Assembly: GCF_000422285.1 (NCBI RefSeq)
Contig: NZ_AULM01000010.1
Location: 1 to 64,000 of the forward strand
Origin: Desulfatiglans anilini DSM 4660
GTDB lineage: Bacteria; Desulfobacterota; DSM-4660; Desulfatiglandales; Desulfatiglandaceae
Reading direction: 5' to 3'
Length of the DNA: 64,000 bases
Below the pieces are notes generated by a model. That model saw only the letters and a program-made list of their open reading frames with translations. It searched no databases and was not told the origin of the DNA. Shown here piece by piece: positions 39,402 to 52,545 of the stretch (positions are counted from its first letter, which is position 1; each line of letters opens with the position of its first letter). Both the position numbers and the translations under genes were made by a program.

Positions 39402-40784
39402 ATGGTTGAACCCGAACGGCAGCAAAAGGGCATGATTGGAAGGAATGGCTCGTCGAGCATGGTGCAGCAGGTCCTCAGGGCCTTCGACGAACTCGAGAAG
39501 GAGGGCAGGCCGCTGGCCGCCGCTTTCCAGACGCTTCGGGCGGGTTATCACGCCCTGGGGGAGCCCGATCGCTTGCGCCTCTTTCTGGAGATGCTCAGGC
39601 GGGTCGAGGTCTCCAAGGCCTCGGTCGCGTCTCCGATCGAGGCTCTTGCCCAGTGCGACGAGGGCGACCCCCGCTGGGCCGGTCTCCTCGCCGACCTGCG
39701 GAGGCGCATACTGTCCCCGCGGTTGAGGCGTTTCCGAAAGCTCGCGCACATCCCGGGAGGGCTCAAGTTCATTCTGGATTTCAGGGGCGACCTCCTCGCG
39801 GCGCAGCGGGAGGGGGGCGTGGAGTTGGGGGCGTTGGACGCGGACATCGTCTTTCTGCTGGAGATGTGGTTTCAGGAGGGATTCCTGTATCTCGAGGAGA
39901 TCACCCTCGATTCATCCTACCGGCAGATCGAACTGATCAAGAACAACGACATGGTCCACCCGATGACGCGCATCGAGGAAATGGGGCGGCGTCTCGGAAA
40001 GGACCGGCGCTGTTTCGCCCTCTATCATCGACTGCTGCCGTTCGAACCGGTGATCTTCATCGAGGTGGCCCTCACCTCGGGGCTTGCCCGCAGCATGGAG
40101 GAGGTTCTCGCGCCGGCTGGGGAGGGCTCGAGGATCGATACGGCGATATTCTATTCCATCAACAACACCCAGAACGGTTTGGCGGGGCTTGGCCTTGGGA
40201 GGATGTTGATCGGCAAGGTCGTGGATTACCTGCGCGGTGAAAACGAACATGTCCGCACCTTCGCTACGTTGAGCCCTATCCCCGGTTTCTGGAAACGCTA
40301 TCTGCGGCCTGTCCTGGAGGGCCGGAAAACGGATGCGCGACTGACTTGCAGAGAGATTGCGGGGTTCTTTTCCAAGAAGGGGGCGGCCGTGGTCAGGGCG
40401 CGTTCGGACGGCGAGGCGGAAGGGGACGAGGCCTTCTGCAGGGCCCTTGCCCGCATCCTTGGCGAGGAGCAGTGGGTCCGGGACGAGGAGTTGAGGCGAA
40501 GCCTCGAAGGGCCGCTGAAGCGCACGACCTATGTCTACCTGACAGAGGAGAAGACCGGGCGCGGCAAACCACTCAACCCCGTAGCCGCCTTCCATCTGGG
40601 CAACGGCGCGACCGTGGCCCCGCGCCACATCCACTTCCTGGCCAACCCCACCCCGAGGGGGCTGCAGGAGTCGTGCGGGGTGATGGTCAACTACGTTTAC
40701 GACTCGGATTGGCTGGGACAGATTCGCCGGACATTTCAATGGTTTGATCTCATGGAAGTGCGGGGGATCTTCCGGCGGCGCTGA
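39402..40784 (+). CDS. Malonyl-CoA decarboxylase
   Basis: A 460-residue protein converting malonyl-CoA to acetyl-CoA and CO2. The N-terminal helical domain (residues about 20-160) is followed by the acetyltransferase-fold domain, with conserved YSINNTQNGLAGLGLGRMLI, TLSPIPGFWKRYL (catalytic serine), TTYVYLTEEKTGRGKPLNPV, AAFHLGNGA (catalytic histidine) and HFLANPTPRGLQESCGVMVN. It is complete compared with the family. The start is uncertain: ATGs at 39402, 39432 and 39459 are possible and none has an ideal ribosome site. No malonate transporter or ligase is adjacent, so it may recycle malonyl-CoA rather than use external malonate. Confidence 0.93.
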   Translation: MVEPERQQKGMIGRNGSSSMVQQVLRAFDELEKEGRPLAAAFQTLRAGYHALGEPDRLRLFLEMLRRVEVSKASVASPIEALAQCDEGDPRWAGLLADLRRRILSPRLRRFRKLAHIPGGLKFILDFRGDLLAAQREGGVELGALDADIVFLLEMWFQEGFLYLEEITLDSSYRQIELIKNNDMVHPMTRIEEMGRRLGKDRRCFALYHRLLPFEPVIFIEVALTSGLARSMEEVLAPAGEGSRIDTAIFYSINNTQNGLAGLGLGRMLIGKVVDYLRGENEHVRTFATLSPIPGFWKRYLRPVLEGRKTDARLTCREIAGFFSKKGAAVVRARSDGEAEGDEAFCRALARILGEEQWVRDEELRRSLEGPLKRTTYVYLTEEKTGRGKPLNPVAAFHLGNGATVAPRHIHFLANPTPRGLQESCGVMVNYVYDSDWLGQIRRTFQWFDLMEVRGIFRRR

Positions 40785-40807: not shown

Positions 40808-40836
40808 TTGACAGGTTTACATGCCTTTATTATAGT
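40808..40836 (+). promoter_or_regulatory. Near-consensus sigma70 promoter
   Basis: TTGACA (40808-40813), a 17-base spacer and TATAGT (40831-40836) in a markedly AT-rich patch. It points to the FAD/Fe-S oxidoreductase gene at 41106. The untranslated leader would be about 260 bases, leaving room for regulation. Confidence 0.75.
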
Positions 40837-40980: not shown

Positions 40981-41105
40981 CTCCGATTTCACCCCTTATC
41001 TTAAAATGCCGGCAGTGCCCGCCCAGGCTGCGGACTATCCAGGATACGCTCCGTGCTGCCGTAGGTCGAGGGCTGCGGTCTGCGCTCAGAGGAGGCTTGT
41101 TTTCT

Positions 41106-43715
41106 ATGGATATCGCCAAGGTCATACCGGAGATTCAGGAGATTGTGGGTGCCGAGAACGTCTTCTACGATCGGGTGGAGTGCCTCAGCTATTCGCGGGA
41201 TATGTCGGTCCACCAGGGCGTCCCCGACGCAGTGGTTTTCGCGAAGACGACCGAGCAAATCGCCGCCATCATGAAGATCGCGCACCGCGAAAAGATCCCC
41301 GTCACTGCACGGGGGACCGGAACCAGCGTCACCGGTGCGGTGTTGCCGGTAAGAGGCGGGCTGCTGCTGGACCTCCACCAGATGAACAACATCCTCGAGA
41401 TCAACAAGGCGGATTTCTACGCTCGCCTCGAGCCCGGGGTCGTTTGTGTGCAGCTCAACAATCGGCTTGCCAAGGACAACCTCATGTTCCCCCCCAATCC
41501 GGGGAGCGAGGTCGTCGCTACCATCGGCGGCATGGTTTCCACCAACGCGAGCGGGCACCGCGCGGTCAAGTACGGGACGACGCGGGACTACATCAAGGGA
41601 CTGAAGGTGGTCCTGGCCGACGGTTCCATCATCGAGACAGGCACGCGTGCACCCAAGACCTCCCTCGGATATGACCTGACGCATCTCTTTACGGCGGCCG
41701 AAGGGACCCTCGGGATTATCACGGAGGTCATCGCCAAGCTGGAGCCCAAACCGGAATATGCGGCGCTGGCCCTGGCCATCTTCGGGGATCTGAACGCGGC
41801 CGGCGATGCGGTGACCGAGGTGACCACCTCCGGGATCAAGCTGGCGGGGTGCGAGATCCTCGACAAGAACAGCATCAAGGTCGTCGAGAAGGCCCTCGGA
41901 CGGGATGCGAGCAAGATCGAGGCGATTCTCATCATGGAGGCGGACGGCGTCAAGGAAGTGGTGGTCCGCGACATGGAGAAGATCGGCGAGATCTGCCGGA
42001 AATGGAACGTTCAGGAATTCGAGTGGACGGACGACCCCCACAAGCGGGAGGAGATGATGCGCGCCCGCGGCGGGCTGGTCCCGACCCTTTCGCGCTTGAA
42101 GCCGGGCAACCGCCTCGTGCCGATCGCTGAGGATCTGGGCGTACCGTCGAGCAAGATCCCGGAGACCATCCGGCGCGCCCAGGAGATCGCCAAGAAATAC
42201 AACGTGCTGATCGCCACCTTCGGACACGTGGGCGATGGGAATGTGCATACGACCTTCGTCTCCGACGTGCGCAGCCGTGATGACTGGGACCGCCTGAAAC
42301 CGGCGGTGGAAGAACTCGTTGCAACCGCCCTGGAGATGAAGGGAACGCTGAGCGCCGAGCACGGGAGCGGCCTGACCCGGGCGCCCCACATGGAGATGCA
42401 GCTCGGCCGGTCCTTCGATCTGATGCGGAAGATCAAGCAGGCGCTCGACCCGGACAACATCCTCAACCCGGGCAAGATGGGCCTCGATGATTCGGAGCGG
42501 AAGCCCGACATCTATGACTACTTCGCCTTCCAGCCGCTGGTGGAGCATCCCGAAGGTCTGAACTCGCTAGGCAAGAGCCTGGACGATGAAGTCTTGGCCT
42601 GCATCCACTGCGGGTTCTGCCGGCTGGGATGTCCGACCTTCAGCGTCACCCACCGGGAGGCTCGCAATGCGCGCGGCCGCAATGCCTTGGCCTTTTATTT
42701 CATGAACGGCACGATCGAGCCGTCGAAGGAACTGGCCGAGGCCTTTTACTCCTGCACCACCTGCCAGGCCTGTACCTACTTCTGCCCCGCCCGCATCTGC
42801 GTGGACGAGATCGTCGAGGGCGTGCGCCGCAAACTCTATGACGCTGGTTTCGTCCCCGAGTCGGTCCTGGCCGTTCGGGACAATATCCTGAAGACCGGCA
42901 ACGTCTATGCGAGCGCCCAGACCGACCGGATCGAGATCTACCCGCCGGCCCTGAAGGAGAAGGCAAAGAAAGGTGAGTTGAAGGCCAAGGCCGAGACCCT
43001 GCTCTTCATGGGGTGCGTCCCGAGCTACCTCGATATGAAGATGGTGCCGAGCCTGCTGAAGCCGTTGGATGCCGCGGGCGTGGATTACACGGTGCTGGCG
43101 ACGGAGGAGAACTGCTGCGGATTCCCCCTTTACCTGATGGGGTCCAAGGATTTCGAGTCCCATGCCGAGCAGTTGATGGAGCGGATCAAGGCTACGGGGG
43201 CGAAAGAACTCGTCACCCCTTGCGCCGGGTGCTTCAAGACCTTCAAGAAGCTTTACCCGCAGTTGGGTGAGATGGGCATCGAAGTGCATCACTCGGTGAC
43301 CTATTTCGACAAGCTGATCCAGGAAGGAAGCCTGAAGTTCAAGGGGGATCTGGGCAAGAAGGTCACCTATCACGATCCGTGCGACCTCGGGCGCGCCCTG
43401 CAGATCTTCGATGAGCCGCGCCGGATCCTGCAGGCCGTCCCGGGACTGGAATTTGCCGAGATGGCGCGCAATCGGCTGCAGTCCCGCTGCTGCGGCGGCG
43501 GGGGCGGCGTCCAGGCGTTCGACCCGGAGATGTCCGTGGCGATGGCGGCCGAGCGCGTCAGGGATGCCCTGGCGGCCGGGGCCGAGGTGATCGTATCCGG
43601 ATGCGCCGCATGCAAGGACAATCTCAAAAAGGGCGCGAAGGCCATCCCCAAGGGGGAACGCGGCAAGATCAAGATCATGGATATCACGGAGATTGTCGCT
43701 GACGCGATGGCATAG
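41106..43715 (+). CDS. FAD-linked oxidase fused to Fe-S subunit (GlcD/GlcF-like, D-2-hydroxyacid dehydrogenase)
   Basis: An 869-residue protein. Residues 1 to about 460 are a GlcD/D-lactate dehydrogenase-type flavoprotein (ARGTGTSVTGAVLPVRGG, GGMVSTNASGHRAVKYGTTR, FTAAEGTLGIITEV, FGHVGDGNVHTTF, EHGSGLTRAPHM). Residues about 495-570 hold two 4Fe-4S motifs (CIHCGFCRLGCP, CTTCQACTYFCP). The rest has CCG domains (ENCCGFPLYLMG, CCGGGGGVQAF) that bind further clusters. It would oxidise a 2-hydroxyacid such as D-lactate, glycolate or 2-hydroxyglutarate and pass electrons to quinones or electron-transfer proteins. The ATG at 41106 is used instead of a TTG lying directly against the ribosome site. First gene of the catabolic cluster. 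Confidence 0.93.
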   Translation: MDIAKVIPEIQEIVGAENVFYDRVECLSYSRDMSVHQGVPDAVVFAKTTEQIAAIMKIAHREKIPVTARGTGTSVTGAVLPVRGGLLLDLHQMNNILEINKADFYARLEPGVVCVQLNNRLAKDNLMFPPNPGSEVVATIGGMVSTNASGHRAVKYGTTRDYIKGLKVVLADGSIIETGTRAPKTSLGYDLTHLFTAAEGTLGIITEVIAKLEPKPEYAALALAIFGDLNAAGDAVTEVTTSGIKLAGCEILDKNSIKVVEKALGRDASKIEAILIMEADGVKEVVVRDMEKIGEICRKWNVQEFEWTDDPHKREEMMRARGGLVPTLSRLKPGNRLVPIAEDLGVPSSKIPETIRRAQEIAKKYNVLIATFGHVGDGNVHTTFVSDVRSRDDWDRLKPAVEELVATALEMKGTLSAEHGSGLTRAPHMEMQLGRSFDLMRKIKQALDPDNILNPGKMGLDDSERKPDIYDYFAFQPLVEHPEGLNSLGKSLDDEVLACIHCGFCRLGCPTFSVTHREARNARGRNALAFYFMNGTIEPSKELAEAFYSCTTCQACTYFCPARICVDEIVEGVRRKLYDAGFVPESVLAVRDNILKTGNVYASAQTDRIEIYPPALKEKAKKGELKAKAETLLFMGCVPSYLDMKMVPSLLKPLDAAGVDYTVLATEENCCGFPLYLMGSKDFESHAEQLMERIKATGAKELVTPCAGCFKTFKKLYPQLGEMGIEVHHSVTYFDKLIQEGSLKFKGDLGKKVTYHDPCDLGRALQIFDEPRRILQAVPGLEFAEMARNRLQSRCCGGGGGVQAFDPEMSVAMAAERVRDALAAGAEVIVSGCAACKDNLKKGAKAIPKGERGKIKIMDITEIVADAMA

Positions 43716-44050: not shown

Positions 44051-45292
44051 ATGGACGTGGGAGAAAAACCCTTGAGAAAAGAGATCACTGCCGGCAAGGT
44101 CCTCAAGAAGATCATGGCCGACCATTTTTATGAACTGGATGCTGCAGCCAAGAGCCGCAGCCCGAAGATCGCCTGGTGCACCAGCGTGGGGCCGGCGGAA
44201 CTGCTGAGGGGGATGGGGTTTCTGGTGTATTTCCCCGAAAACCACGGCGCCATGCTGGGAGCCACCCGGATGGCGGCGGAGTTGATCCCCTACGCGAACG
44301 CCGTCGGCTACTCCCCCGATATCTGCTCCTACCTGACCTCCGACGTCGGATCCTACCTTCGGAAGCAAACGCCGCTCACCAAGGCCTACGGGATCGAATC
44401 GGTGCCGCTGCCCGATGTCCTGGTCTTCAACACCAACCAGTGCCGGGATGTGCAGGATTGGTTCGCCTGGTATTCCCGGGAATTGAACGTGCCGCTGGTC
44501 GGTCTTTACACGCACCGCGACATCGGCCCCATACACAAGTATGAGCTGGAGGACATCGCCCAGCAGATCCGCGACCTCATACCGCCGCTCGAAGAGATTG
44601 CGGGGACCCGTTTCGATATGGACCGCTTCAAGGGGGCGCTCGCCCTGTCGAGGAGGACATCGGAGCTTTGGCGGGCCTGCCTCGAGTCGGCGGCCGCGAT
44701 CCCCTCGCCCTGGACCTTCTTCGATGCCACGATCCACATGGGCCCCGCGGTGGTGGCGCGCGGTACCCAGGCGGCGGTCGATTACTATGAACTGCTCCTG
44801 AAAGAGCTGCAGGAGCGGGTGGTGAACAAGGTGGCGGCGGTCGAGGGCGAGCGCCACCGGATCTATTGGGAGGGGATGCCGATCTGGGGCAAGTTGAGGC
44901 CGCTCTCCGATCAGTTCGCCTCCCTGAAGACCTGCGTCGTGGCCTCGACTTACTGCAACAGCTGGATCTTCGATCAACTGGACCCGAATGATCCATTTTT
45001 GAGCATGGCTCGCGCCTATACGGAGCTTTTCATCGTCCGCGACGAGCCTTACAAGGAGGCCTATATCCAGGATGCGCACGAGCGGTTCCGATTCGACGGC
45101 ATCCTCTTCCACGACGCCAAGACCTGCCCCAACAACTCCAATAACCGCTACGGCATGCCCGAGAGGCTGAGCCGGAACCTGGGGATCCCCGTTCTGACGA
45201 TCAACGGCGATCTGAACGATCTGCGCTGCTACAGCGAGGAACAGACGAAGACCAATATCGAGGCTTTTATCGAGCAGTTGGAAGAGGTTTGA
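44051..45292 (+). CDS. 2-hydroxyacyl-CoA dehydratase / benzoyl-CoA reductase B-like subunit (HgdB family)
   Basis: A 413-residue protein of the HgdB/BcrB/FldB fold, which binds a 4Fe-4S or double-cubane cluster and receives an ATP-energised electron from an activator. The family pattern is visible in PKIAWCTSVGPAELLRGMGF then PENHGAML, SPDICSYLTSDVGSYL, VFNTNQCRDVQDWFAWYSRE, EGMPIWGKLRPLSDQF and KTCPNNSNNRYG. Cysteines in AWCTS, DICSY, NQCRD and KTCPN are candidate cluster ligands. Only one such subunit is encoded here, whereas dehydratases and class I benzoyl-CoA reductases use two, so a homodimer of the YjiM/double-cubane type is possible. It is coupled to its activator at 45296. Confidence 0.88.
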   Translation: MDVGEKPLRKEITAGKVLKKIMADHFYELDAAAKSRSPKIAWCTSVGPAELLRGMGFLVYFPENHGAMLGATRMAAELIPYANAVGYSPDICSYLTSDVGSYLRKQTPLTKAYGIESVPLPDVLVFNTNQCRDVQDWFAWYSRELNVPLVGLYTHRDIGPIHKYELEDIAQQIRDLIPPLEEIAGTRFDMDRFKGALALSRRTSELWRACLESAAAIPSPWTFFDATIHMGPAVVARGTQAAVDYYELLLKELQERVVNKVAAVEGERHRIYWEGMPIWGKLRPLSDQFASLKTCVVASTYCNSWIFDQLDPNDPFLSMARAYTELFIVRDEPYKEAYIQDAHERFRFDGILFHDAKTCPNNSNNRYGMPERLSRNLGIPVLTINGDLNDLRCYSEEQTKTNIEAFIEQLEEV

Positions 45293-45295
45293 GCG

Positions 45296-46069
45296 TTGGG
45301 AGGAATCTTTGCGGGTGTGGATGTCGGGGCCTCCCGCACCAAAGTGGCCCTGCTGGACGAGGATCGGAAGCTGATCGGCAAAGCTGTCTTGAAATCGGGC
45401 ACGGATTTTTCGCGCACGGCCGAGGCAGGGCTGTCGGCGGCATTGGAGGAGGCCGGATGTGGGCGGCCGGAGATCCGGGGGTGTGTATCCACCGGATACG
45501 GCCGGAAAAACGTGACATTCCACAACGACACCAAGACCGAGATCAGCTGCCACGCGAAGGGCTGTTTCCACTATTTCCCGATGGCCATCACCATCATCGA
45601 CATCGGCGGCCAGGACAACAAGGTCATCAAGCTGGACGACCATGGCCGGCGGATCAGTTTCAAGATGAACCGCAAGTGCGCCGCTGGGACGGGGGCCTTT
45701 CTGGAAGAGATGTCGGTTAGGCTCGATATCCCGTTGGAGGAGATGGACGGGCTGGCGGAGGCCTCCACGGATATGGTCGAACTGGGCAGTTATTGCACCG
45801 TTTTTTCGGCCACGGAAGTGCTGGAAAAGATCCGGCAGGGGAAAAAAGTCCCGGACATCGTCAAGGGGCTTTTTTTTTCGGTCCTGAAGCGGGTGCTCGA
45901 GATGGATTCCTTGACGGAGCGGGTCGTCATGACCGGCGGGGTCGTAGCGCACAATCCTTACCTCGTGAAGATGCTGGAGGAGCTGGTGGACCGGGAGATC
46001 CTGGTGCCGCCGTTTCCACAGCTGACCGGTGCGGTGGGGGCGGCCCTGTTCGCGCTGGAGGCCGCTTAG
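45296..46069 (+). CDS. Acyl-CoA dehydratase activase (HgdC/YjiL-like ATPase)
   Basis: A 257-residue ASKHA-fold ATPase. It has the phosphate-1 motif FAGVDVGASRTKVALLDE, the second motif TIIDIGGQDNKVIKL, cluster ligands in NRKCAAGTGAFLEE and GSYCTVFSATEVLEK (one 4Fe-4S shared by a homodimer), and the adenosine motif MTGGVVAHNPYL. It uses ATP hydrolysis to drive a low-potential electron into the HgdB-like partner. The start is a TTG at 45296, three bases after the preceding stop, with GAAGAGG inside the end of the upstream gene, so the two are translationally coupled. Confidence 0.93.
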   Translation: MGGIFAGVDVGASRTKVALLDEDRKLIGKAVLKSGTDFSRTAEAGLSAALEEAGCGRPEIRGCVSTGYGRKNVTFHNDTKTEISCHAKGCFHYFPMAITIIDIGGQDNKVIKLDDHGRRISFKMNRKCAAGTGAFLEEMSVRLDIPLEEMDGLAEASTDMVELGSYCTVFSATEVLEKIRQGKKVPDIVKGLFFSVLKRVLEMDSLTERVVMTGGVVAHNPYLVKMLEELVDREILVPPFPQLTGAVGAALFALEAA

Positions 46070-46316: not shown

Positions 46317-47897
46317 ATGACGAGAAGCAAGTGGATGCACATGGGTACCATCTTGAAGATGAACGCCTACAACTATCCCGACAAGTTGGGATGGCAGGAC
46401 CGCAACAAGGAATTCACCTTCAAGCAATGGAACGAGCGCGCCTGTCGGTTCGCGAACGGGTTGGTCAAGCTCGGGGTGGGGCATAAGGACACCTTTTCGG
46501 TGATCGCTTACAACAGAGGGGAATGGATGGATATCTACGCCGGCTGCGCCAAAGGCGGACAGGTGGTGGTTCCCGTCATGTTCAGGTTGGCCGGACCCGA
46601 AATCGAGTTCATCGCGAATCACTCGGAGAGCAAGGCGTTCATCGTGGAGGCCCCCTTCGTGGATCTGATCAACAGCATCCGCGATAAGCTCTCGGTCCCC
46701 AAAGGGAACTACATCTACCTGGGCGATGGGCCTGCCCCCGAAGGGTATATCGGTTTCGAGGAATGGCTGGCGGCCTCCTCGCCGGAAGAGCCGGATTGGG
46801 TGGTGGATGCCGACGACATCTGGACCATCATGTACACCTCGGGGACGACCGGCCGCCCCAAGGGCGTCATGAAGACCCACGAGAGCTTCATGGCGATGTA
46901 CTATCTGAACCTTGTCAACATGGGCGTCCGGCCGACCGACAAGGTGATGCTGGTGATGCCGATGTGCCATGTCAACTCCATCTATTATTCATTTCCGTAC
47001 ACGCTCATCACGGCGCCCGTGTTCGTCAACAACATGGTGAGCTTCGACCCCGAAGATCTCCTGCGGACGATCGAAAAGTACAAGATCACCTTCACCTCCC
47101 TGGTGCCTACGCATTACATCATGATGCTGGCGCTGCCCGACGAGGTCAAAAACAGCATCGACGTTTCTTCCATACGGCAGTTGCTGATTTCGTCCGCACC
47201 CGCCCGGAAAGATCTCAAGCTCGCGATCATGGAATACTTCAAGAACGCCGAGTTGTGGGAGGCTTACGGCAGCACCGAAGGCGGGCTGGTAACGCTCCTC
47301 AGGCCCGAAGACCAGTTCAAGAAGCTCGGTTCGATCGGCAAGGAGATCTTCGGTACGGACCGCATCCGGATCCTGGATGAAGACCGCAACGAGGTGCCGG
47401 ACGGCGAGGTGGGCGAGCTCTTTTACCGCACCCCGATGCTCTTCAAGGAGTACCTGAAGGAGCCCGAAAAGACCAAGGAGGCCTTTTTCGAGGGCTGGTC
47501 CTCGGCCGGTGATATGGTCCGGCGCGACGAGGATGGTTACTATGCCCTGGTCGACCGCAAGGCCAACATGATCATCACCGGCGGCGAGAATGTTTATCCC
47601 TCGGAGGTCGAGAATGTGGTCGGATCGCACGACGCGGTGAAGGATGTGGCCATCATCGGGATCCCGGACGAAAAATGGGGAGAAACCATCAAGGCGGTGG
47701 TCGTTCTGCACGCGGGATACGAGCCGTCCCCGGATCTGGCCAAGGAGATCATGGACTTCTGCAAAGGCAGACTTGCAGGTTTCAAGCGGCCGAAGAGCGT
47801 CGATTTCATTGCCGACGACCAGATGCCGAGAACCCCGACTGGAAAGATCCTGCACCGGATCCTGCGGGAAAAATACGGAAAATGGAGCGACGCCTGA
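46317..47897 (+). CDS. AMP-dependent acyl-CoA synthetase/ligase
   Basis: A 526-residue ANL-superfamily ligase that activates a carboxylic acid to its CoA thioester. Motifs: WTIMYTSGTTGRPKGVMKTH (phosphate loop), LWEAYGSTEGGLVTL, DRKANMIITGGENVYPSEVE (hinge) and PRTPTGKILHRILREKYGKW with the catalytic lysine. It is closer to medium/long-chain or aromatic acid ligases than to acetyl-CoA synthetase. The position between the dehydratase system and the thiolase suggests it supplies the CoA ester for that pathway. GGGGGAGG at good spacing supports the ATG at 46317. Confidence 0.92.
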   Translation: MTRSKWMHMGTILKMNAYNYPDKLGWQDRNKEFTFKQWNERACRFANGLVKLGVGHKDTFSVIAYNRGEWMDIYAGCAKGGQVVVPVMFRLAGPEIEFIANHSESKAFIVEAPFVDLINSIRDKLSVPKGNYIYLGDGPAPEGYIGFEEWLAASSPEEPDWVVDADDIWTIMYTSGTTGRPKGVMKTHESFMAMYYLNLVNMGVRPTDKVMLVMPMCHVNSIYYSFPYTLITAPVFVNNMVSFDPEDLLRTIEKYKITFTSLVPTHYIMMLALPDEVKNSIDVSSIRQLLISSAPARKDLKLAIMEYFKNAELWEAYGSTEGGLVTLLRPEDQFKKLGSIGKEIFGTDRIRILDEDRNEVPDGEVGELFYRTPMLFKEYLKEPEKTKEAFFEGWSSAGDMVRRDEDGYYALVDRKANMIITGGENVYPSEVENVVGSHDAVKDVAIIGIPDEKWGETIKAVVVLHAGYEPSPDLAKEIMDFCKGRLAGFKRPKSVDFIADDQMPRTPTGKILHRILREKYGKWSDA

Positions 47898-48074: not shown

Positions 48075-49265
48075 ATGTTGAAGAAAGCGTTTATTCCTTA
48101 CAAGGGCTATTACTCGACCCCGTTCTGCCGCTGGCAGGGCAGCATGGCCAATGAGAACGCCATTTCACTGGCCGCCAACACCGCCAAGCGATGGCTGGCG
48201 CAGAAGAACTGGGATCCGAAGATGTACGAGTACCTGGTTTTCGGGAACACCATCGGGCAGCACCACCAGTTCTACGCGAGCCCCTGGGCCGCCGCCCTCA
48301 TGGGATCGGGCGCAACGCCCGGGCTGATCCTGAGCCAGGCCTGCACCACGTCGATGACCTGCATCTTCACCGCCGCGATGGGCGTCGAGGCCGGTTGGTA
48401 CACGGTGGCTTCCGCGCTCATGACGGACCGCTGCTCCAACGGACCCCACACGATTTGGCCCAACCCGATGGGACCGGGTGGAGAGGTCATTTCGGAGAAC
48501 TGGCTGATGGACAATTTCAACAGCGATCCGAATGTCGGCCTCAAGATGATCGAGACCGCGGAAAACGTGGCCAAAGAAGGCGGGTTCACCAAAGAGCAGT
48601 GCGACGAACTGACCCTCAGGCGGTACGAGCAGTACAACGAATCGCTCGCCAATGACCGGGAATTCCAGAAGCGTTACATGTTCCCCGCGGAGGTGGTCAT
48701 CTCGAAGAAGAAGAGCCTCCTGATCGAAGAAGACGAGGGCATCACGCCTACGACCAAAGAGGGGCTGGCCAAGCTGAAGCCCGTCATCCCGGGCGGCGTC
48801 CACAGCTTCGGTGCCCAGACGCACCCCGCCGACGGCAACTGCATGGTGACCGTCACCACGGAGGCCAAGGCCAAGGAACTCAGCGCCGACCCCGCGGTCA
48901 GCATCCAGGTGGTCTCGGGCGGCTATTCCCGTGAGCGTCCGGGTTACATGGCCGCCGCACCGGTTCCCGCCGCTCGTCTGGCGCTCGAGAAGGCCGGTCT
49001 CAAGATCGAGGACATCAAGGTCATCAAGACCCATAACCCGTTTATCGTGAACGATCTCTATATGAGCCGGCAGATGGGGCTCGACCCGTTCAAGTTCAAC
49101 AACTACGGCTGCTCGCTCGTCTACGGCCACCCGCAGGGACCGACCGCGGGCCGCATCATCATCGAGGGGATCGAAGAGACGGTCAAGCTCGGTGGCGGCT
49201 ACTTACTCTGGGCCGGCTGCGCAGCGGGTGACACGGGCGGTTCGTTGATTCTCAAGATCTCGTAA
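48075..49265 (+). CDS. Thiolase family protein with atypical active-site motifs
   Basis: A 396-residue thiolase-fold protein. The nucleophile region is LSQACTTSMTCIFTAAMGVE, the histidine region NNYGCSLVYGHPQGPTAGRI, and the C-terminal loop WAGCAAGDTGGSLIL. The usual NEAFA motif is replaced by KTHNPFIVNDLY and the C-terminal CxG loop by CAAGD, so substrate or reaction may differ from acetoacetyl-CoA thiolase. The length is normal. It would cleave a 3-ketoacyl-CoA at the end of the cluster pathway. GGGAGGG precedes the ATG. A terminator follows 40 bases after the stop, so this is the last gene of the unit. Confidence 0.9.
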   Translation: MLKKAFIPYKGYYSTPFCRWQGSMANENAISLAANTAKRWLAQKNWDPKMYEYLVFGNTIGQHHQFYASPWAAALMGSGATPGLILSQACTTSMTCIFTAAMGVEAGWYTVASALMTDRCSNGPHTIWPNPMGPGGEVISENWLMDNFNSDPNVGLKMIETAENVAKEGGFTKEQCDELTLRRYEQYNESLANDREFQKRYMFPAEVVISKKKSLLIEEDEGITPTTKEGLAKLKPVIPGGVHSFGAQTHPADGNCMVTVTTEAKAKELSADPAVSIQVVSGGYSRERPGYMAAAPVPAARLALEKAGLKIEDIKVIKTHNPFIVNDLYMSRQMGLDPFKFNNYGCSLVYGHPQGPTAGRIIIEGIEETVKLGGGYLLWAGCAAGDTGGSLILKIS

Positions 49266-49304
49266 CCCGCCCTTTAGTTGACCTTCAGTCTTCAATTTGT
49301 TATG

Positions 49305-49343
49305 AAAGATCGTCCCTCTCGAAGGGGGGCGGTCTTTTTTTTG
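49305..49343 (+). terminator. Rho-independent terminator of the dehydratase/thiolase cluster
   Basis: AAAGATCGTCCCTC pairs with GGGGGCGGTCTTT (several G-T pairs when read as RNA) around a short loop, followed by eight T residues. It lies 40 bases after the thiolase stop. Confidence 0.88.
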
Positions 49344-49536: not shown

Positions 49537-51216
49537 ATGATGAAAATGGTGATCTTCCAGTCGCTGGGTGGACTGGGCCTGTTCCTGTTCGGCATGAAGA
49601 TCATGTCGGAAGGGCTGCAGCGCGTGGCCGGCAGCAAAATGCGGCAGATATTGGGTTTTGTTTCCAACAACCGGCTGATCGGCTGTCTGGTGGGGACGGG
49701 TGTCACTAGCGTGATCCAGAGTTCGAGCGCGATGACGGTCATGCTGGTCGGGTTTGTGGACGCGGGCCTCATGACGCTGCGCCAGGCCATCGGCGTCACC
49801 CTCGGGGCGAACATCGGGACGACGGTCACGGCACAGCTGATCGCGTTCAAGATCGAAGACTATGCGCTGCCGGCCGTTGCGCTGGGCGTGCTGCTGAAGT
49901 TTTTCATCGGCCGGAAGAAATGGCGTTATGTTGGAGACGTCATGTTGGGATTCGGATTGGTCTTTTTCGGGCTGAGCCTCATGAAGACCGGATTCGCGCC
50001 GCTCCGAACCAACCCGACCTTCATCGCCTTTTTCACCAAGTTCCAGGCCGACACGCTTGTCGGGATCATGCTCTGCGTCCTGGCCGGTGCGGTCCTCACG
50101 ATGATTCTGCAGAGTTCCAGCGCGACGGTGGGCATTACCATGGCCCTGGCGAGCCAGGGACTGCTGAGTTTCGAGGCGAGCGTCGCCCTCATCCTGGGGG
50201 AGAACGTCGGTACGACGGTCACCGCACAGCTGGCGGCGGTCGGTGCGAGCGACACCGCGCGTGAGACGGCGATGGCGCACAGCCTTTTCAACGTATTGGG
50301 CGTTTTCAACATCATTCTGATCTTCCCTTACTTCGTGGACCTCGTGTCCTGGGCCACCTCCCTCATGTTCGAGGAGGGCGGAGCCCGTCTGCTGGTCGAT
50401 GGCGAATACCCTTATGTCGCCCGCTATATCGCGAATGCGCACACGCTGTTCAATGTCGTGAATGCCGTCGTCTTTCTGGGGCTGCTGCCTTATCTCGTAC
50501 GGGCCGCCGTCTGGCTGACCCCGGGCAAGGCCAAAGAGGATGTGATGGAGGAGATGCACCACGTCAAATACCTCGACAGCCGTTTCGTCGAGACGCCTTC
50601 GGTCGCCATTGGACAGGCGCGTGCCGAGACCATTCGAATGGGCGAGATCGTCGAGGTCATGTACAACGACGTGGTGAACTGCCTGAAAGACCGGCAGATG
50701 GGGGAGTTGTCCAAGTGGCGGAAGCGTGAGGACGCCGTGGACATCCTGCAGAAAGAGATCACTCAGTTCCTCGTGCGGGTTGTCCAGGGCCCGATTACAC
50801 CCGAAGAGTCGAAAGAGGTCAATTCGTTGATCCGCATGGTCAACAACTTCGAGCGCATGGGGGATGCGGTCGAGAACCTCGCCGAACTCATTCAGGAGCT
50901 GATCGAGCAGGATCTCCATCTTTCGGAGGGCGGCCTGTACGATTACCAGGTGATTTCGGATGAAGCGAGGCGGTTTATCCGGTTGATCATCGACGCCATG
51001 AAAAAGGATGACAAGACGGTCATGGGCAGGGCGCAGGTCTTGGAAGACAGCATCAACAACATGCGCGAGGAGATGCGCGGCAATTACCTCATGCGCCTCC
51101 AGAGCGGTATCTGCACGGTGGATCCCGGCCTGATCCTGGTGGACATGCTGACGGCCTTTGAGAAGATCGGCGACTACTGCTACAACATTGCCCAGGCTGT
51201 GGCGGGAGTGAAATAG
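49537..51216 (+). CDS. Na/Pi cotransporter family protein with PhoU-like tail
   Basis: A 559-residue protein. Residues 1 to about 330 contain two inverted Na/Pi-cotransporter repeats, each with a QSSS motif (VTSVIQSSSAMTVMLVGFVD, MILQSSSATVGITMALASQG) and partner motifs TLGANIGTTVTAQLIA and ILGENVGTTVTAQLAA. About eight or nine membrane segments are present. Residues about 350-559 are a PhoU-like helical domain thought to control uptake. It takes up phosphate with sodium. The start at 49537 has a weak ribosome site. It is monocistronic, after the strong terminator. Confidence 0.93.
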   Translation: MMKMVIFQSLGGLGLFLFGMKIMSEGLQRVAGSKMRQILGFVSNNRLIGCLVGTGVTSVIQSSSAMTVMLVGFVDAGLMTLRQAIGVTLGANIGTTVTAQLIAFKIEDYALPAVALGVLLKFFIGRKKWRYVGDVMLGFGLVFFGLSLMKTGFAPLRTNPTFIAFFTKFQADTLVGIMLCVLAGAVLTMILQSSSATVGITMALASQGLLSFEASVALILGENVGTTVTAQLAAVGASDTARETAMAHSLFNVLGVFNIILIFPYFVDLVSWATSLMFEEGGARLLVDGEYPYVARYIANAHTLFNVVNAVVFLGLLPYLVRAAVWLTPGKAKEDVMEEMHHVKYLDSRFVETPSVAIGQARAETIRMGEIVEVMYNDVVNCLKDRQMGELSKWRKREDAVDILQKEITQFLVRVVQGPITPEESKEVNSLIRMVNNFERMGDAVENLAELIQELIEQDLHLSEGGLYDYQVISDEARRFIRLIIDAMKKDDKTVMGRAQVLEDSINNMREEMRGNYLMRLQSGICTVDPGLILVDMLTAFEKIGDYCYNIAQAVAGVK

Positions 51217-51421: not shown

Positions 51422-51819
51422 CCTGTAGGCGATGTCGTGAGGGATGTTTTTCTCAGGTGAGAAAACTGACGAAGGTCGTCTTCGCCTTAGGCTGGAAGCT
51501 TAATATGGCCGGGTAATCTATCTCGTGGAGGGGCTTGCGTCCTGCGGAATGTTCCTTTGCGGGTTGGGAAGCCGAAAGGGCCTTGCAGTTCTTTTTGGAT
51601 GGGATGGGTCATGTGGTTGCCGGTTGGCCTGTGCGGGGAAGGTATAGCGGCTGAGGGCCGTAAAAAGCGCCTGCCCAGCATCGGTTGGCCTGTGCGGGGG
51701 AGGAACAGGGGTCTTGCCGGGTGACCCTCCGTGTAAAGGAAGACAGGGTGGTGCCGGAGGGTGATTTCCGGGCTGGAGGTTTGCGGTTGGATGAATCGAT
51801 TCCGGATGGGAAGCAGGAG
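51422..51819. other. Intergenic region with hairpin and 18-base direct repeat
   Basis: GTTTTTCTC and GAGAAAAC form an AT-rich hairpin at 51446-51466. CGGTTGGCCTGTGCGGGG occurs twice (51621-51638 and 51682-51699), 61 bases apart. No gene is supported; an upward extension of the next gene through this region has no family similarity. Confidence 0.5.
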
Positions 51820-52545
51820 ATGATGCAATCGGGACATGAACCGAGAACGGAGTGCATTCGCTGCGGGCAGTGCTGCCTGAACAGCAGCCCCACGCTCCAA
51901 AAGGAGGACGCCCGCCTCGTGCTGGAGGGGCGGATCCCACGGGACGCGCTGTATACCGTCAGGGTCGGAGAACTGGTCCATGACCCGGTGGAGGGGCGCA
52001 GCGGAATCGCCGCCAAGGAAATGATCAAACTCAAAGAGCGGGGGCAGCGAGGCGGGTGCGTTTTCTATGACGCGGAGGAGCGTGCCTGCCGCATCTACCC
52101 TTCGCGTCCGAGCCAGTGCGCAGCTCTGGCCTGCTGGGACCTCAGCGCGTTCATGCGTGTCTACGAGGGGGCGAAGGCCCAGCGTACGGATGTCATCGAG
52201 GACCCGACCCTTCTCCGTCTGATGGCCGAACACGAGGAGCGCTGCAACTACGAAGAGATCGCGCACTGGGTCTGGGCCATCGAAGAGCAGGGTGAGAAGG
52301 CGGTCAAAGAATTGCTGAATCTCCTGCGTTTCGATCACGACTTGAGGCCTTTGGCCGCAAGGCGTTTGAACCTCGATGCCGCCTGTATGGATCTGCTTTT
52401 CGGGCGGCCCCTTGTCGAGACGATCGGGATGTTCGGTTTGGAGGTCAAAAGGGAGGCCGGCGGCGCGTTTCTGCTGACAGCGCTTCCGCGGGACCGCCGC
52501 GCAGAGGGCGGTTCCGGCGCCCGGAAGCCCCCAGCGCGGATTTGA
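51820..52545 (+). CDS. YkgJ family cysteine cluster protein
   Basis: About 241 residues. The N-terminal TECIRCGQCCLNSSP and the later GGCVFYDAEERACRIYPSRP with QCAALACW form the cysteine set of the YkgJ/Fe-S (formerly zinc) cluster family. A helical C-terminal part without cysteines follows (HWVWAIEEQGEKAVKELLNL). The family is poorly understood; some members bind an iron-sulfur cluster. The start at 51820 or 51823 is chosen just before the first conserved motif; AGGAG is very close. Longer upstream starts would translate the direct-repeat region. Confidence 0.82.
   Translation: MMQSGHEPRTECIRCGQCCLNSSPTLQKEDARLVLEGRIPRDALYTVRVGELVHDPVEGRSGIAAKEMIKLKERGQRGGCVFYDAEERACRIYPSRPSQCAALACWDLSAFMRVYEGAKAQRTDVIEDPTLLRLMAEHEERCNYEEIAHWVWAIEEQGEKAVKELLNLLRFDHDLRPLAARRLNLDAACMDLLFGRPLVETIGMFGLEVKREAGGAFLLTALPRDRRAEGGSGARKPPARI

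Follow-up and report, generated by a model that had tools for sequence, protein, structure and literature searches.

The oxyanion hole in the thiolase superfamily is made up of either two histidines or an asparagine and a histidine (PMC3406046). SCP2-thiolases carry an HDCF motif and are without the C-terminal cysteine motif, their base cysteine being thought to come from HDCF itself (PMC7682436), and the steroid aldolases Ltp2 and Sal have the tyrosine of a YDHF/YDCY motif (PMC12329534). Closer to the subject of this study are two proteins of Desulfococcus multivorans. Dmul_C24650 was assigned to the thiolysis of 3-oxo-3-phenylpropionyl-CoA to benzoyl-CoA and acetyl-CoA, and the enzymes of its operon were detected specifically in cells grown with cinnamate or 3-phenylpropanoate; Dmul_C24750 was formed on phenylacetate and phenylpyruvate and was given a role in phenylglyoxylate formation by the authors (PMC5109826). 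The same study took Dmul_C24850-70 for the conversion of phenyllactate to phenylpyruvate, reported that genes for PadB and PadEFGHI are absent, and called the route to benzoyl-CoA unclear (PMC5109826). It also names the 3-phenylpropanoate degradation of Aromatoleum EbN1 and Rhodopseudomonas, whose 3-oxo-3-phenylpropionyl-CoA step is the reaction that we propose for the window thiolase. The excerpts of PMC5109826 drawn on here make no mention of unusual motifs in the D. multivorans thiolases.

We analyzed a 64,000-nucleotide stretch of the Desulfatiglans anilini DSM 4660 genome (the window), in which a forward-strand open reading frame of 396 aa runs from an ATG at 48075, preceded by a purine-rich stretch, to a stop codon ending at 49265. 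Its product exceeds the cut-offs of both Pfam thiolase domains (Thiolase_N, 59.5 bits against 26.4; Thiolase_C, 64 bits against 27). The best NCBIfam match, TIGR01930 (acetyl-CoA C-acyltransferase), scores 181.3 bits, under its cut-off of 240.55, and no model stands above its cut-off among the 25 matches listed of 33. An AlphaFold2 model (46 rows) has a pLDDT of 92.7 and a pTM of 0.93, with a weaker stretch at residues 121-150; since confidence is low there, nothing was drawn from the length of the covering loop, a clue to substrate size (PMC7337054). As the original prediction had proposed, the model was compared with characterized thiolases, and the predicted fold matches classical thiolases over the whole chain: the 50 best rows listed in a fold search are all of this kind (Z 51.5-53, 380-389 residues, 20-26% identity), headed by human mitochondrial 3-ketoacyl-CoA thiolase, with the leading rows tied. 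T1, BktB and the Z. ramigera thiolase (4c2k, 4w61, 1m4s) have in common with it the predicted fold, the cysteine nucleophile, the GHP histidine and the C-terminal cysteine. A close homologue with proven acetoacetyl-CoA thiolase activity, named beforehand as the finding that would count against an altered function, is not present among solved structures, the best of which is about 26% identical. The reading frame at 48075-49265 is confirmed to encode a thiolase-fold protein with altered catalytic loops.

Alignment places the key residues at C90, H320, H352 and C382, all in motifs read on the forward strand. The nucleophile loop in the CxS fingerprint region (48342..48353) had been predicted to be kept, which is true of Cys90, whereas the loop around it is slightly altered and reads C-T-T-S, with CTT for CxS. 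Among the classical thiolases of the same genome, the loop is C-x-S in seven of the eight rows covering it and C-x-T in the eighth. Retention of the GHP histidine (G351-H352-P353, 49125..49133) was correctly foreseen, the three residues being the same in all 88 family members aligned. The replacement of NEAFA by THNPF is also real, in a register shifted by one: NEAF aligns with H320-N321-P322-F323 (49032..49043) and the threonine lies one residue earlier, so that the key change is from Asn to His, not Thr, at the oxyanion-hole-I position. Finally, the CxG loop is indeed changed, to C382-A-A-G-D (49218..49232), with the acid/base residue C382 itself retained, so the cysteine is not lost. By alignment, all nine classical thiolases of the genome have NEAF and CxG (9/9 each), and six of the nine have M-G where the altered thiolase has M292-A.

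This natural His state was once made artificially, since 2wku, among the structures listed in the fold search, is the N316H mutant of the Zoogloea (Z. ramigera) thiolase. Oxyanion-hole-I mutants are said, in work by Merilainen et al. in 2009, to lose condensation hundreds-fold and thiolysis far less. Together, this mutant and the reported behavior of its kind make the predicted catalysis in one direction plausible. The altered residues are catalytic and say little about the substrate.

To follow these residues through the family, we used an alignment of 88 members, composed of the window thiolase, its paralogue, 80 loci, two D. multivorans proteins, proteins of three other genomes and one Pseudonocardia plasmid protein. 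Identical throughout (88/88) are C90, T92, M292, H320, P322, F323, G351-H352-P353 and C382-A383-A384, whereas position 321 is variable, with N in 74 members, S in seven, Q in six and E in one. Because this invariance extends to the Pseudonocardia protein, which is 39% identical to the window thiolase and retains the altered motifs, the loops are a fixed family trait, not the product of chance or drift. A quick tree was built from rows of the HNPF family together with own-genome rows of the other kinds: three DUF35-linked rows, one of them long-branched, and nine classical rows, four of them shortened by start-codon choice. In it, the HNPF family, the classical thiolases and the DUF35-linked thiolases each fall on one side of a branch, and the stem of the HNPF family is long, at 1.94 changes per column, its inner branches measuring 0.04-0.18. 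The genome contains one paralogue, 64% identical, and nine classical thiolases that are at most 31% identical. The paralogue lies at 869-2059 of contig C83, where it is the sole sense-strand open reading frame of at least 150 aa within 3,061 bp, its gene context being lost.

The family is present in 74 of 99 relatives (E <= 1e-60) and, over the phylum as a whole, in 77 of 296 genomes (E <= 1e-45; weakest match 1.4e-84). The 80 loci are the best 80 of 485 relatives, and neighbor counts thus describe the closest ones; their named records are mostly Desulfobacterota, many titled Deltaproteobacteria, and Bacillota, the remainder being one Dehalococcoidia and a few titled just 'bacterium' or 'proteobacterium'. 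Plasmid records hold one clear member, from an actinomycete, among 15 listed of 45, and its recorded name is 'thiolase family protein'. A phage or plasmid origin was considered and set aside: of 16 phage records, the five listed show 26-28% identity, and none of 61 pattern matches in viral contigs was confirmed as a relative. HNPF thiolases form a tightly conserved and seemingly unstudied branch, mostly in anaerobes; the literature searched yielded no enzyme assay of any member. The string THNPF...GHPQ...GCAAGD offers a signature for annotating such thiolases, which the NCBIfam models among the matches listed leave unnamed.

How does this active site compare with those of the known classes? 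Classical thiolases are the nearest by sequence (20-26% identity among the matches listed), from which the HNPF family differs by His for the NEAF Asn, by CAA-GD for CxG, and by a loop-domain signature, DR-SNGPHT-WPNP-GPGG...SENW, that replaces the ESMS loop. The His at the NEAF Asn position (H320) is common to SCP2-thiolases, where it belongs to HDCF; in contrast to these, the HNPF family has Pro in place of the HDCF Cys and keeps C382 in 88 of 88 members. Judged from its residues, the HNPF active site is a hybrid of an SCP2-like His and a classical base Cys. No paper in the literature searched describes this combination, a weak sign that none exists, and it goes unnamed in the parts of PMC7682436 and PMC3406046 that we used. 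A lineage that naturally joins a His at oxyanion hole I to the classical base Cys provides a ready test of how this His affects direction and substrate. BbsB and SCP2 entries are missing among the matches listed in the fold and sequence searches, which for listings of the best matches excludes nothing.

The DUF35-linked group, comprising BbsAB and the archaeal acetoacetyl-CoA thiolase complex, also has His at the NEAF Asn position, and BbsB likewise yields an aroyl-CoA product, as we propose for the HNPF thiolase. The HNPF family nevertheless sits on a separate branch and has no detected DUF35 partner. The four PF01796 matches of the genome lie on contigs C13 (two), C33 and C1, with none on the window's contig C8, and no DUF35 gene was found in the 80 loci (0/80) by tblastn with one DUF35 query at E <= 1e-12, a search that divergent ones could escape. 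Given the separate branch and the contig without a PF01796 match, a BbsAB-type complex was rejected for the window. On contig C13, the genome also encodes a DUF35-linked thiolase-fold protein (L121:1866-3029) that has a YDCF motif, lacks GHP and resembles SCP2-thiolase-like proteins or Sal.

The thiolase gene is the last of a five-gene operon on the forward strand. It is preceded, in this order, by an 872-aa FAD-oxidase/Fe-S (CCG) fusion resembling D-2-hydroxyacid dehydrogenases (41097..43715), kin of which occur no more than 5 kb away in 15 of 80 loci; by a 413-aa HGD-D protein (44051..45292), whose best solved relative is the alpha subunit of 2-hydroxyisocaproyl-CoA dehydratase; by a 257-aa 2-hydroxyacyl-CoA dehydratase activase (45296..46069; BcrAD_BadFG, TIGR00241 above cut-off); and by a 526-aa AMP-forming acyl-CoA ligase (46317..47897), kin of which share the strand of the thiolase and lie at most 500 bp from it in 52 of 80 loci. 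A hairpin followed by a T run, typical of an intrinsic terminator (49304..49342, forward strand, -23.3 kcal/mol, z -4.1), lies directly 3' of the thiolase gene. Ahead of the operon is a sigma-70-like promoter match (40808..40836, forward strand), a consensus match only (11/12) from a scan that gave five matches against 2.5 expected. The operon includes no hydratase gene and no 3-hydroxyacyl-CoA dehydrogenase (3HCDH) gene, and the three good IOR matches of the genome are all on contigs other than the window's. A single HGD-D subunit accompanies the activase, both here and in the D. multivorans module described below; a single-subunit dehydratase would be unusual, as known 2-hydroxyacyl-CoA dehydratases are built from two different subunits. 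Outside the operon, a malonyl-CoA decarboxylase gene (39402-40784) precedes it, with kin in 4 of 80 other loci. Downstream of the terminator come genes for a Na/Pi cotransporter-PhoU fusion (49537-51216) and a CxxCxxCC protein (51685-52545), which also accompany the thiolase in 4 and 10 of 80 other loci, respectively.

In D. multivorans DSM 2059 (G224), two members of the HNPF family are located at 2.767 and 2.779 Mbp, with 11.9 kb between them, inside the published hotspot at 2.77 Mbp and in the gene order described for it. The first stretch consists of ligase, acyl-CoA dehydrogenase, thiolase, 3HCDH, one further gene and a 3HCDH/ECH fusion. The second starts with 3HCDH, 3HCDH/ECH, thiolase, a response regulator, two histidine kinases, DctM/Q/P and two ligases, and continues with HGD-D, activase, ApbA, ACT, IorB and the start of IorA. 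We assigned Dmul tags to these loci by gene order, not from printed tags. On this basis, the first thiolase fits Dmul_C24650 and the 3HCDH/ECH fusion C24680; in the second stretch the thiolase fits C24750, the response regulator C24760, the histidine kinases C24770/80 and a ligase C24830, and HGD-D, activase and ApbA would be C24850-70. Dmul_C24650 and Dmul_C24750, known just as substrate-dependent proteins, are thus by gene order members of the HNPF family; their identity to the window thiolase is 63% and 67%, and they have the same motif set. The HGD-D protein and the activase of the window are 61% and 70% identical to their D. multivorans counterparts, and the ligase is 51% identical to the one beside the HGD-D gene of that module. 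The two arrangements differ in that ApbA, IOR and ACT stand in D. multivorans where the window operon has the FAD/Fe-S dehydrogenase.

Similar sets of genes recur in other relatives. Within 5 kb of the thiolase, the 80 loci contain HgdB in 27 cases, an ADP-forming acyl-CoA ligase in 15 and IorA in six; 3HCDH is near in nine, eight of them within 500 bp. At least three of the seven module genes (IorA, IorB, PaaK, ApbA, ACT, HgdB and activase) are on the thiolase strand in 22 of 80 loci, six of the seven in 6 of 80 and all seven in 0 of 80, and the order IorA-IorB-PaaK-ApbA-activase-HgdB-ligase-thiolase is complete in 5 of 80. None of the seven is found in 37 of 80 loci, in some of them because the contigs are short. 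Two genomes (G170, G215) have the order NEAF thiolase-ECH-BamA-HNPF thiolase-PaaK-ACT-ApbA-ligase-IorA, and in locus L104 the thiolase is surrounded by FadE, ECH and IorAB. The neighbors in the Bacillota loci L094, L112 and L113 lie outside all module clusters. When neighbors were tested against curated models, the IorA neighbor (IOR_alpha) and FadE exceeded their cut-offs. PaaK was the best curated name for the L043 ligase, yet with 544.5 bits against a cut-off of 646.3, and IorB models stayed below cut-off for the neighbors tested (TIGR03334, 200.4 against 205.8). The 3HCDH beside the thiolase in L107 is 3-hydroxybutyryl-CoA dehydrogenase-like.

BamA is the ring-opening hydrolase of the benzoyl-CoA pathway. 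We took TIGR03200 to be BamA and counted it at E <= 1e-60, which gave 83 genomes, 74 of them above the family's own cut-off. It occurs in 63 of 77 genomes with an HNPF thiolase and in 20 of 219 without (Fisher p about 1e-32, not corrected for phylogeny, both genes being clade-bound). As a control for catabolic breadth, the comparison was restricted to the 207 genomes with methylmalonyl-CoA mutase, where the figures are 61 of 75 and 18 of 132. Conversely, 14 of 77 thiolase genomes are without BamA and 20 of 83 BamA genomes without the thiolase. The two genes lie close together in few genomes among the places compared; same-contig distances serve as examples, taken from 88 of the 91 thiolase places, 68 of the 83 BamA places and 10 IorA places chosen by hand. 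The presence of IorA was discarded as a genome-wide marker for being too common (238/296 genomes).

The operon and module context, the co-occurrence with BamA and the D. multivorans proteome study together indicate aromatic acid catabolism. An aromatic substrate was among those originally predicted, and it is this gene context and the published proteomics of relatives that speak for it, not the loop residues on which it had been based. We infer substrate, direction, residue roles and pathway order from this evidence, and think that the HNPF thiolase is probably a competent degradative enzyme specialized for 3-oxo-3-arylpropanoyl-CoA, such as benzoylacetyl-CoA, feeding the anaerobic benzoyl-CoA pathway. 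Overall, CoA and ArCO-CH2-CO-CoA would be converted to ArCO-CoA and acetyl-CoA. His352 would activate Cys90, which would accept the aroyl group of the 3-oxo substrate, and the acetyl-CoA enolate would be held by His352 together with His320, the latter replacing the Asn-bound water. Cys382 would then protonate the enolate, after which CoA would free aroyl-CoA. Upstream of this step, the 2-hydroxyacid dehydrogenase, ligase and dehydratase/activase of the window operon may supply cinnamoyl-CoA-type esters from aryl-lactate or arylpyruvate, with the hydratase and 3-hydroxyacyl-CoA dehydrogenase presumably supplied from other sites in the genome.

Could the protein instead be an ordinary thiolase for aliphatic 3-ketoacyl-CoA or for acetoacetyl-CoA, with drifted loops and incidental aromatic neighbors? 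The fold and three of the four catalytic residues are classical, the best NCBIfam match is TIGR01930, though under its cut-off, and the 3HCDH beside the thiolase in L107 resembles 3-hydroxybutyryl-CoA dehydrogenase. We nonetheless find this unlikely, because the changed residues are invariant in 88 of 88 members, the long stem branch speaks against drift, nine classical NEAF thiolases are already in the genome, and the family is associated with BamA, IOR and PaaK. An enzyme working in the condensing direction, producing 3-oxoacyl-CoA, would have a parallel in the actinomycete relative, whose surroundings include a pair of beta-ketoacyl synthases and an acyl carrier protein. As the nameable neighbors are mostly catabolic, and as a change from Asn to His at oxyanion hole I should harm condensation most, we would be very surprised if this were its role.

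The original prediction had also named branched or 2-substituted 3-oxoacyl-CoA, of which 2-methylacetoacetyl-CoA from isoleucine would be an example. This agrees with the HGD-D protein being nearest, among solved structures, to 2-hydroxyisocaproyl-CoA dehydratase, and with the methylmalonyl-CoA mutase domain and hydantoinase-type pair upstream in L081. Against it, the IorA neighbor exceeds the IOR_alpha cut-off, the best model for the ligase is PaaK, below cut-off, and relatives are formed on aromatic acids (PMC5109826), so that, with little evidence on either side, we regard such a substrate as distinctly improbable. Still less probable is that the protein is no thiolase, being either a thiolase-fold lyase (a retro-aldolase, as Ltp2/Sal are) or an inactive homologue (as TLP1 is), both of which exist among related thiolase-fold proteins (PMC12329534, PMC3406046). 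The protein keeps the nucleophile Cys, the GHP His and the C-terminal Cys, the aldolase motif tyrosine is absent, its place being taken by His in 88 of 88 members, and no DUF35 partner was seen on the thiolase's own contig or, with one query, in the 80 loci. An inactive thiolase-like protein was rejected on the ground that the catalytic residues are kept in 88 of 88.

Returning to thiolysis of 3-oxo-3-arylpropanoyl-CoA, a bolder reading, which we put forward tentatively, is that the HNPF thiolase may close an unrecognized anaerobic phenylacetate/phenylpyruvate route in sulfate reducers without the Pad phenylglyoxylate enzymes. Phenylacetate would be activated to phenylacetyl-CoA by PaaK/FadD4 and carboxylated to phenylpyruvate by IorAB acting as a reductive carboxylase. 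ApbA or the FAD/Fe-S enzyme would give phenyllactate, which the AMP ligase would convert to phenyllactyl-CoA, and the single-subunit HGD-D dehydratase with its activase would produce cinnamoyl-CoA. Hydratase and 3HCDH would lead on to benzoylacetyl-CoA, which the HNPF thiolase would cleave to benzoyl-CoA and acetyl-CoA. If true, the route would find a use for nearly all genes of the collinear module and would fill the step called unclear in PMC5109826. Its lower half has already been conceived, since a hypothesis for benzene degradation by strain BzS1 sketches a path from phenylpyruvate, via a phenyllactyl-CoA dehydratase, to cinnamoyl-CoA, 3-oxo-3-phenylpropanoyl-CoA and benzoyl-CoA (PMC13416013). 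What would be new here is the tie to a gene module and a thiolase family, and the reversed IOR. The module thereby becomes a testable proposal for converting phenylacetate, phenylpyruvate and phenyllactate to benzoyl-CoA without known phenylglyoxylate enzymes.

A few further loci are of note. On the Pseudonocardia plasmid pLS2-2 (L128:8971-10161), the thiolase keeps company with a methyltransferase, FabG, two ketosynthases, an acyl carrier protein, a P450 and an aromatic amino acid ammonia-lyase, the last 3 kb from the thiolase on the opposite strand, a neighbor that speaks for an aromatic substrate; this member perhaps primes polyketide synthesis with an aroyl-CoA starter. In L081:113-15250, the thiolase adjoins a ligase of the PaaK cluster, a hydantoinase-type pair matched below cut-off by caprolactamase and acetophenone carboxylase models, a methylmalonyl-CoA mutase domain, a CoA transferase and a molybdopterin-binding protein, a cluster that possibly represents another 3-oxoacid route. 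Downstream of the thiolase in L070:11035-15515 are an activase, an HGD-D-type protein matched below cut-off by double-cubane and BzdN models, a 465-aa protein that no NCBIfam model matches at 1e-30, and another activase; a gene set of similar sizes is found in L067:11815-16387.
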